A stretch of DNA of 64,000 bases, taken from NCBI GenBank assembly GCA_947630805.1, contig CANRIV010000001.1, positions 124,001 to 188,000 on the forward strand, given 5' to 3'. The stretch is from an uncultured Lachnospiraceae bacterium. Lineage in GTDB: Bacteria; Bacillota; Clostridia; Lachnospirales; Lachnospiraceae. Positions 45,596 to 47,022 of this stretch are shown here, in pieces (the first letter of the stretch is position 1; every line of letters begins with the position of its first letter). The notes beneath the pieces were generated by a model that saw only the letters and a program-made list of their open reading frames with translations, was not told the origin of the DNA and did not search any database. Both the position numbers and the translations under genes were made by a program.

Positions 45596-45629
45596 AAGAA
45601 GGAGGACAAAGGTCTTCCTTCTTTTTTTG
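45596..45629 (+). terminator. Terminator after recN
   Basis: AAGAAGGAGGAC pairs with GTCTTCCTTCTT (one wobble pair) with a 4-base loop and a following T-run. This isolates spoIVB from the recN transcript. Confidence 0.9.
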
Positions 45630-45684: not shown

Positions 45685-45782
45685 AGTTGAAAGAAATATA
45701 GAGGAAAGGAAATATAATGCAAATCACTCTTTCAACTCCTGATTTGCGCCTTACAGATGCCGGCGGGCTCTGCAGATAAGGC
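45685..45782 (+). promoter_or_regulatory. Candidate structured leader RNA of spoIVB (pseudoknot plus hairpin)
   Basis: AGTTGAAAGA (45685-45694) is perfectly complementary to TCTTTCAACT (45728-45737), which lies in the loop of a 7-base hairpin GCAAATC/GATTTGC (45719-45725 with 45741-45747). That order gives an H-type pseudoknot. It abuts, with no gap, a second hairpin: GCCTTACAGA-t-GCC (45748-45761) pairs with GGC-TCTG-caga-TAAGGC (45766-45782). The element ends 13 bases before the spoIVB ATG. I recognise no known riboswitch class. Transcription start is unknown, so whether all parts are in the mRNA is not shown. Confidence 0.5.
45717..45779 (+). CDS. Possible 20-codon leader peptide before spoIVB
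   Basis: ATG with a very good ribosome site (GAGGAAAGGA, 7 bases away), 20 residues beginning MQITLSTPDLRL, stop TAA at 45777-45779 inside the 3' arm of the second hairpin. It lies wholly within the folded leader. It might be a real regulatory upstream frame or a by-product of RNA structure; I cannot decide between them. Confidence 0.3.
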   Translation: MQITLSTPDLRLTDAGGLCR

Positions 45783-45795
45783 ATGGTGAATTGTG

Positions 45796-47022
45796 ATGAG
45801 AAGTATCTATAGAAACTGTCTGATTGTTTCAATTTTAACTGCAATATTAATTATTATCGTATCAGGAATATTATATATTAATAATAATCTTCCTGATACA
45901 ATTTTTGTGAACTCTAATCAAAGTACAAAATATAATTTTTCTATTCCGGTATCATTGGATGTAGACCATAAAAATAAAATACATTTAACAGGAAAAAATG
46001 ATATACAATCCGGCAATGTGGGAGATTATCAAGGGACTTATAAATTGTTTGGCATTATTGCTTTAAAAAATACAAAAGTAAAAGTCATAGAGAAAAAATA
46101 TGCCTACCCCATCGGTCTTCCGGTGGGATTATATTTGAAGACTCAGGGAGTTATGGTGATACAGGTGGGTGAAATTACGGATTACAATGGAAATACAAGC
46201 TCACCTGCCGAAGGAAAAGTAAATCCGGGAGAATATATTGTTAAATTCAATGATATCCGCGTCAGTAATAAATCGCAGTTGTCCTACTTAATTAATGAAA
46301 ACGGAAGTAAGGAAGTCTGTCTTACCTTAAAAAGCGGAAATACATTTAAAACAGTAAATATTAAACCTGTAAAAAACCAGTCCGATGCGTATATGCTCGG
46401 CATTTGGGTAAGAGATGATTCCCAGGGAATCGGTACCATGACATTTATTACGGAAAATAACCAGTATGCAGCTTTGGGACATGGAATCAGTGATGTAGAT
46501 ACCGGAAAATTATTATCCAGTCATGATGGAATTATTTACAAGGCAAATATCTGGGGAATAAAAAAAGGAGAAAAAGGAAAACCGGGAGGATTATGCGGGA
46601 CAATTATCTATAATGACAGTAATATTATTGGAAGTATTTATGAAAATAATAATAGTGGTTTGTTTGGCAGTGTCAATACAAATATTTATGAAAAATATCA
46701 TTTGAAAAAAATGGAAGTGGGATTACATTCGGATGTACAGACAGGAAAAGCAAAGATTCAGTTTATTTATGAGGGGAAAGTACAGCAATATGATATTAAT
46801 ATATTGGAAATCAATAAAAATAATAAAGAAAAAAATATGGTGATTGAAATTACGGACAAAAAATTGCTGGAAAAGACAAATGGAATTGTACAGGGAATGA
46901 GTGGATGCCCTATTATACAGAATGAAAAAATTGTGGGTGCCGTGACTCATGTAATGGTAGATGAGCCTACAAAGGGATATGCAATATTGACAGAAAATAT
47001 GCTGGAATATATAAAAGAATAA
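45796..47022 (+). CDS. spoIVB: SpoIVB peptidase, sigma-K checkpoint signalling protease
   Basis: 408 residues from ATG 45796 (GGTGA 6 bases upstream); a GTG one codon earlier is also possible. N-terminal membrane anchor (8-28), PDZ domain (about 108-190, GLPVGLYLKTQG), and the S55 serine-protease domain with H229 in GHGISD, D354 and S369 in GMSGCP; the spacings equal those of the Bacillus triad. It is secreted from the forespore and triggers SigK processing. It lies downstream of recN as usual, but an FHA gene separates it from spo0A. Confidence 0.96.
   Translation: MRSIYRNCLIVSILTAILIIIVSGILYINNNLPDTIFVNSNQSTKYNFSIPVSLDVDHKNKIHLTGKNDIQSGNVGDYQGTYKLFGIIALKNTKVKVIEKKYAYPIGLPVGLYLKTQGVMVIQVGEITDYNGNTSSPAEGKVNPGEYIVKFNDIRVSNKSQLSYLINENGSKEVCLTLKSGNTFKTVNIKPVKNQSDAYMLGIWVRDDSQGIGTMTFITENNQYAALGHGISDVDTGKLLSSHDGIIYKANIWGIKKGEKGKPGGLCGTIIYNDSNIIGSIYENNNSGLFGSVNTNIYEKYHLKKMEVGLHSDVQTGKAKIQFIYEGKVQQYDINILEINKNNKEKNMVIEITDKKLLEKTNGIVQGMSGCPIIQNEKIVGAVTHVMVDEPTKGYAILTENMLEYIKE

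Follow-up and report, generated by a model that had tools for sequence, protein, structure and literature searches.

A dispersed, probably mobile, structured RNA element found before spoIVB and unrelated genes in Lachnospiraceae

Several described systems resemble one or another aspect of the RNA element reported here. Pseudoknotted riboswitches include preQ1 and SAM-II. The T4 gene 60 bypass and the yeast mitochondrial byps place a structured, possibly mobile insert between translational signals, and HEARO occurs next to ATGA/GTGA. The dispersed repeats bcr1 of the Bacillus cereus group, REP and RU-1 are foldable intergenic sequences of ~100 nt, present in many copies whose number varies among relatives. 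Bicistronic translation leaders (BCD; PMC5995908) place an SD and a short frame before the start codon of the gene proper. The element itself did not turn up in searches of the open-licence PMC literature or in passages of PMC2864571; this literature does not cover most subscription papers or any preprints.

The copy that led to the family was found in the window, by which we mean the whole stretch of 64,000 nt that was analysed, from an uncultured Lachnospiraceae bacterium; all features given below lie on its forward (+) strand. A terminator-like inverted repeat with a T run (45596..45628), recognized in the sequence and kept in four congeners, lies 3' of recN and 5' of the element. The gene that follows is spoIVB (45796..47022; SpoIVB peptidase S55, Pfam PF05580, E 2.3e-79). 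We take the ATG at 45796 as its start, since the congeneric orthologues begin at the matching ATG and the spacing of the element points there too; the mechanical list of open reading frames puts it at GTG 45793 instead.

The window copy is ~110 nt long. Read from the sequence, it begins with AGTTGAAAGA (45685..45694), the 5' strand of S1, with the family core GTTGAAAG at 45686-45693. This strand is complementary to TCTTTCAACT (45728..45737), the S1 3' strand, and the initial annotation was right to describe a 10-base complement reaching into the loop of a hairpin. The hairpin, S2, is formed by GCAAATCA (45719..45726) and TGATTTGC (45740..45747); its stem has 8 pairs, not the 7 first given. The S1 3' strand falls within the S2 loop, which makes the fold a pseudoknot. 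The 3' strands of both stems are assigned from sequence and covariation counts, and 8 of 8 S2 pairs show two-sided changes over 97 sequences. Between the 5' strands lies a purine-rich loop, L1 (45695..45718), with an SD-like AAAGGA at 45705-45710 and an ATG at 45717-45719. Flush with S2, folding places a bulged hairpin, P3 (45748..45782), with the closing stem GCCTTA/TAAGGC; as previously reported, it follows without a gap and ends 13 bases before the spoIVB ATG. An SD-like GGTGA (45785..45789) stands 6 nt 5' of that ATG. The element also holds a 20-codon frame read from the sequence, MQITLSTPDLRLTDAGGLCR (45717..45779), with AAAGGA 6 nt ahead of its ATG.

Ordinary thermodynamic folding of 171 nt around this site, by a method blind to pseudoknots, gives nothing remarkable (z -1.3, with a fold as good in 21 of 200 shuffles). 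In dinucleotide shuffles of a 261-nt region, a 7-bp hairpin with an upstream 9-nt loop complement arose in 85 of 20,000 and the same arrangement with a flush 6-bp hairpin in 5 of 20,000, and among 261-nt tiles of the whole window (60-nt steps, both strands) the full motif is unique to this site; the thresholds were chosen after the motif was seen, so these counts are a rough guide. Conservation at other loci is weightier support for a real structure than the shuffles. On family covariation together with the shuffle and tile test we reject a chance structure, which the initial annotation had called unlikely. The window has no match in Rfam 15 at gathering scores, and in 14 copy-bearing loci Rfam 15 places nothing on the element at E<=5. 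The nearest match is a below-threshold sraA (E 1.3, 27.3 bits vs 56) at L032:1385-1457, 5' of the element.

We then examined how widely the element is spread. When 126 nt were searched by blastn in 397 genomes of the family, G164, G248 and G336 had clear matches, each preceding a different gene. Covariance model R1 matched 28 of the 397 at E<1e-3 with 13 candidates scored per genome, a figure that includes five model-building genomes and one genome (G312, L072) whose match looks false by eye. When 150 candidates were scored and the weaker matches were read in part, matches at E<=0.01 numbered 47 in D16-51, 44 in G404, 22 in G336, 21 in B58_58_RH_H, 19 in C77, 13 in bin44o, 12 in G191 and 1 in the window genome. 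Thus seven genomes hold 12-47 model matches each, with numbers that vary among relatives, as in a dispersed repeat. Within the order, matches came from 6 of 295 genomes; three of these belong to another family (f11), and in one (G079, L282) the match is false by eye. At the phylum level the only match among 348 was the window genome, in a search with 15 candidates per genome and strict filters, which is therefore weak. All such counts are lower bounds, since few candidates are scored when a search spans more than 40 genomes. A pattern scan of named genomes gave at least 119 stretches. Among those listed, model matches at E<=0.001 came from Lachnospiraceae, other clostridial or Bacillota bacteria, D16 isolates and one uncultured bacterium, with hosts such as Mobilisporobacter senegalensis, Lachnotalea glycerini, Candidatus Galacturonibacter soehngenii and Bacterium D16-51. 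Listed pattern matches from Bacteroidota, Proteobacteria and other distant groups had no model match at E<=0.001 (E 0.038 for L226). The element is a dispersed RNA of gut-type Lachnospiraceae and does not belong to spoIVB.

A search of plasmids gave no match and one of phages a single match at E 0.1. The exact 27-nt pattern was absent from viral contigs; a loose pattern occurred in 4, none of which matched the model at E<=0.05. Carriage by phages or plasmids is not supported by these searches.

For the family as a whole we compiled 151 distinct copies from model and pattern matches, which are not a random sample. Weak matches with no fold by eye (L072, L075, L076, L079, L082, L085, L103-L114, L282) were dropped before copies were counted; L106 and L109-L113 were read after dropping, with the same outcome. 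L310, a clipped stretch of the same site as L179, was also removed, duplicates were merged by flank, and L316-L322 were added later than the copy counts. The copies share the order 5'-(AAG)-S1-L1-S2-L2-S1'-L3-S2'-P3-GGTG-n-ATG, with an L3 that is short by the measure of a classical stacked knot. S1 occurs as GGTGAAAG/CTTTCACC, GTTGAAAG/CTTTCAAC, GATGAAAG/CTTTCATC or ATTGAAAG/CTTTCAAT, and once as GCTGAAAG/CTTTCAGC; S2 occurs as GCAAATC, GCAAACACA, GCCAC(A) or AATTACCC, each with its complement.

Over 97 sequences, 96.4% of the cells of S1 and S2 pair. Two-sided changes number 139 cells vs 36.6 in shuffles (reached by 0 of 500), and the covariation score is 0.312, falling to 0.057 or less when partners are slid; alignment A5 was made on a model containing S2, so the S2 share of these counts is biased toward pairing. 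S1 was absent as pairs from the model. Its core pairs in 96.4% of 769 cells (97 sequences) vs 91.7% in shuffles, which take no account of relatedness; two-sided changes number 33 vs 10.2 and the covariation score is 0.183 vs 0.100 (each reached by 0 of 500 shuffles; slid partners score 0.086 or less). These changes are confined to positions 1 and 2, and the pairs at position 2 are GC 48, UA 21, GU 9, AU 6 and CG 1, with 11 unpaired. For S1 pairs with changes on both sides the count of 2 was reached by 431 of 500 shuffles, and for pair types the count of 12 by 204 of 500. S1 thus stands above its controls on three of five measures; the other two lie within the shuffles because six of the eight S1 pairs vary on one side only. 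S1 is supported by near-universal pairing and one strongly covarying position, and S2 by covariation at all eight pairs.

The closing stem of P3 has at least 5 bp in 140 of 149 copies, with 82 distinct stem pairs, and mismatched arms reach this length in 47% of 276 controls; taken alone, this measure is of moderate strength. The P3 loop may carry inserts of roughly 60-290 nt with the closing stem kept (L087, L068, L144, L153). The long inserts examined are non-coding by eye, and this speaks against autonomous copies that would carry a protein gene inside P3. The copies in L144 and L153, which lie 5' of a gene that looks rnc-like by eye, have P3 inserts of ~150 and 290 nt; the longer contains an additional repeat that is nested in the shorter.

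The internal ribosome site noticed in the window recurs in the family. Among the 149 copies with a downstream frame, which were found with a model that includes the window stretch, all have AAGG or AGGA in L1 within the first 34 nt after S1, and 109 have AAGGA in L1, vs 17% of mononucleotide shuffles. At the L1/S2 junction 119 copies have ATG, 8 CTG, 7 TTG, 4 GTG and 11 no codon of this form. The window copy does overlap a short frame behind a ribosome site, and the SD and start codon of that frame recur. The frame itself has a median of 14 codons and is not conserved (86/31/21 of 138); on account of this variation in frame and length we reject a conserved small peptide.

Copies are placed at a narrow distance from a gene start. 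An ORF of at least 60 codons (shorter if clipped by the end of the stretch) lies within 420 nt of 149 of the 151 copies. The gene start, ATG in 143 of the 149, falls 28-62 nt 3' of S2 in 131, at exactly 48 nt in 73, and a GGT-type motif stands just 5' of the chosen start in 138, under a choice of start that favours ATG and the GGT motif. When the first ATG of the ORF is taken plainly, 122 of 147 copies fall at 28-62 nt, 70 at 48 nt, and 118 of 147 have the GGT motif. A start is absent in 2 of 151 copies and farther off in 18 of 149. This narrow spacing disfavours a free small RNA, which the initial annotation had listed as a possibility. The genes preceded, in Lachnospiraceae and the neighbouring family, include gyrA, leuD, trpA, miaA, smpB, ddl, murG and nusB, of which leuD and some other names were read by eye from translations. 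Pfam matches were obtained for 25 of 28 downstream proteins, hand-picked from the 149; their functions are largely unrelated, and no common pathway is seen among the 28.

Two further observations were made at these loci. The distantly related nusB genes of L261/L235 (bin44o, G1-1A) and of L288 (G046) are 42% identical and are preceded by elements of different subtypes; either old inheritance or independent insertion could account for this. In L061 a gene for the bacterial large SRP RNA (2132-2394) lies near a copy.

Comparison of the gap between recN and spoIVB in relatives, which the initial annotation had proposed, was carried out in six congeners (L003-L008). Each has the recN terminator, a short gap and then spoIVB, and the element is absent. 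The window flank can be aligned to the congeners as far as AAATATA (45684); past this point the congeners read a native ribosome site, ...GGTGGGGGTATAAAA-ATG, where the window reads the element. In the window leader the native SD seen in the congeners can no longer be made out. The pairing, whose lack of conservation the initial annotation would have taken as a refutation, is conserved across the family; all six congeneric spoIVB leaders lack the element. Model R2, run over 23 genomes, found 1 credible copy in the window genome and a few congener copies, at other genes (E about 1e-4 or better: 1 in G019, 2 in G014, 1 in G013, 1 in G012); the weaker R2 matches L320 and L322, when read, lack the fold. 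The initial annotation had offered a riboswitch or a translational timer of the SigK checkpoint, specific to spoIVB. The position in front of spoIVB is what such a leader would have; the six empty congeneric leaders and the many unrelated genes preceded elsewhere largely refute it, and we give it almost no credence. As the element stands before diverse genes and the six leaders are empty, a metabolite riboswitch with a coherent regulon is likewise unlikely, as is a sporulation timer. The first reading of the locus is partly supported. Its structured leader RNA holds, together with the pseudoknot and the internal ribosome site plus ATG; a link specific to spoIVB or SigK is not supported.

Empty sites were also found at other loci. 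G336 has 22 matches vs none credible in four congeners, in which two weak matches lack the fold. Ten G336 loci were queried; congener sites were recovered at 7 and three gave no match. The whole element is present in 0 of 20 congener sites of the seven loci (20 of 21 matches were examined, L141 lying inside a leuD-like gene, and synteny was checked at part of the sites). At a TrkA-family gene the congener reads ...ggatagggaaaagaaa-ATGAAATCA, and G336 reads ...ggataggagaaatg, then the element, then ATGAAATCA. In G460 the sites of three bin44o loci lack the element (4 were asked, one gave no match, and the third alignment is the least clean). Sites occupied in one genome and empty in its relatives are again those of a dispersed repeat; some sites are common to bin44o and its relative G1-1A, so not every site differs between relatives.

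Judged by the empty sites, the insertion lies in or beside the short stretch that separates the native SD from the ATG. In D16-51 (L260:3502-3689) two elements stand in tandem, the second of which parts the first element's GGTG from the gene ATG. In GCAAAC-type copies, the commonest subtype, an SD lies 3-17 nt 5' of S1 in 64 of 105, vs 18, 11, 15 and 9 of 105 in four windows farther off; in other subtypes it is near background (4 of 15 for the GCCAC type and 6 of 29 for the rest, the window copy included). At leuD (L050) the native SD is gone, as in the window. From these sequences we read the events as a probable insertion between SD and ATG, with the old SD fading afterwards. For the window copy, whose subtype has upstream SDs near background, insertion exactly between SD and ATG is less well supported. 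Target-site duplications and terminal inverted repeats were not evident by eye, and the A-rich edges could mask a short duplication. At one of the congener sites, in G456 (L140), a partial element-like stretch before a NUDIX-like gene, AAAGAAAGGATGAAATGCCGAAAAGGCATGGTG, ending in GGCATGGTG, looks like a shrunken element. The upstream flank of L157 (bin44o) carries another interspersed palindromic repeat (query ~54-121), found at ~27 further places in G460.

Six orthologous pairs of copies could be compared. Their stems differ at 2.8% of positions, their loops at 5.2% and the 60 nt of upstream flank at 23%; of the 9 stem pairs that changed, 6 can still form, and 3 of 161 stem pairs are broken. 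In two pairs (L198/L254 and L201/L204) the flank differs at 72 of 138 positions, the stems at 2 of 112 and the loops at 5 of 99; in the other four there is no clear contrast (flank 16/240, loops 12/230, stems 7/210). These differences suggest that the element may be used in place after insertion, and retention is weakly supported because the contrast comes from two of the six orthologous pairs. Gene conversion could be another cause of the likeness between copies.

The main rival is a reading in which the element is a selfish repeat, its fold kept as the RNA or single-stranded DNA substrate of a mobilising enzyme and its SD and ATG features serving only to soften insertion. We regard it as possible, if rather unlikely. 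It would account well for the high copy number, the near-identical copies within a genome, the empty sites, the downstream genes without common function, and the element being no better kept than its flank in four of the six orthologous pairs. It accounts less well for the two pairs that are near-unchanged beside a strongly diverged flank, unless gene conversion made them so, and for the 131 of 149 copies at a narrow spacing from a start. A dispersed regulator, in which a ligand or protein would bind the knot and set the translation of a scattered regulon in the manner of a riboswitch, would explain why L1 and S1 are conserved in sequence beyond pairing and why the element lies over the ribosome-binding site; since the genes are unrelated and relatives lack the element at the compared sites, we find it improbable.

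More doubtful still is a ribosome shunt, conceived by analogy with T4 gene 60, where ribosomes reportedly skip an insert: initiation complexes formed at the native SD would pass over the folded element and begin at the ATG on its far side. The upstream SD kept in GCAAAC-type copies fits this idea, as do the P3 inserts with their closing stem kept and the presence of GTG (99), TTG (32) or ATG (7) at S1 positions 2-4 in 138 of 149 copies. Against it, the upstream SDs of other subtypes are near background, and CTG (L206) and TCG (L101) also occur at positions 2-4. The codons at these positions vs the gene start, ATG in nearly all copies, are not the identical take-off and landing codons of a bypass, and a rule by which S1 supplies an NTG take-off codon is weakened by the 11 of 149 copies with CTG, TCG or others.

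We favour, with a probability of roughly 0.55, the reading that this is a dispersed and probably mobile structured RNA which takes the place of the translation-initiation leader in whatever gene it precedes. The observations under this reading are the many copies, the empty congener sites, the placement before start codons, and the covariation of S2 and of S1 at two positions. Mechanistically, the element would spread by insertion, would be transcribed with the gene and would become its translation-initiation leader. The pseudoknot and P3 may keep GGTG-ATG unpaired and available, and the old SD would decay once the element is in place. Folding would compete with the internal SD-ATG in L1/S2, and a ribosome would either find the gene's own start or enter at the internal ATG, read the short frame and reinitiate at the gene. 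In the window species, such an element would have landed before spoIVB. More tentatively, and with less than even confidence, we propose a class of mobile RNA that targets the gap between SD and start codon and in which the pseudoknot, set against the internal SD-ATG, takes over the start of the ribosome. Such an RNA would be a natural, portable cassette for starting translation, and its role could be loosely likened to that of a viral internal ribosome entry site.

Insertion between an SD and its start codon should normally silence a gene, yet the element is found before gyrA, murG, ddl, smpB and nusB. Should it carry or control initiation, it would amount to a mobile regulatory module that alters translation one gene at a time, and it could readily serve in studies of how folded RNAs let ribosomes in. 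If instead cells only tolerate it, how they bear dozens of insertions and which enzyme places them so exactly become testable questions.

Among known systems, the element shares with bcr1, REP and RU-1 the traits given at the outset, and it differs from them in being a pseudoknot and not a palindrome, in lacking a terminal inverted repeat by eye and in its placement in or near the spacer between SD and ATG. Like riboswitches and other cis-regulatory leaders, it is a covarying pseudoknot over a ribosome-binding site; unlike them, it has no coherent gene set, is absent from the same sites in relatives and has no Rfam match. As in T4 gene 60 and the byps, a structured and possibly mobile insert lies between two translational signals, but it stands before the reading frame and not within it, and strict identity of take-off and landing codons is lacking. 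BCDs have a similar SD and short frame, whereas the element is natural, folded and dispersed, and its short frame is not conserved. HEARO/OMEGA and IStron are mobile structured RNAs, as the element probably is, but much larger, and no associated protein gene such as that of the IscB type was noticed beside the copies. None of the known kinds compared joins dispersal, a covarying pseudoknot and placement between SD and ATG. A cautious placing of the element is among dispersed structured repeats.
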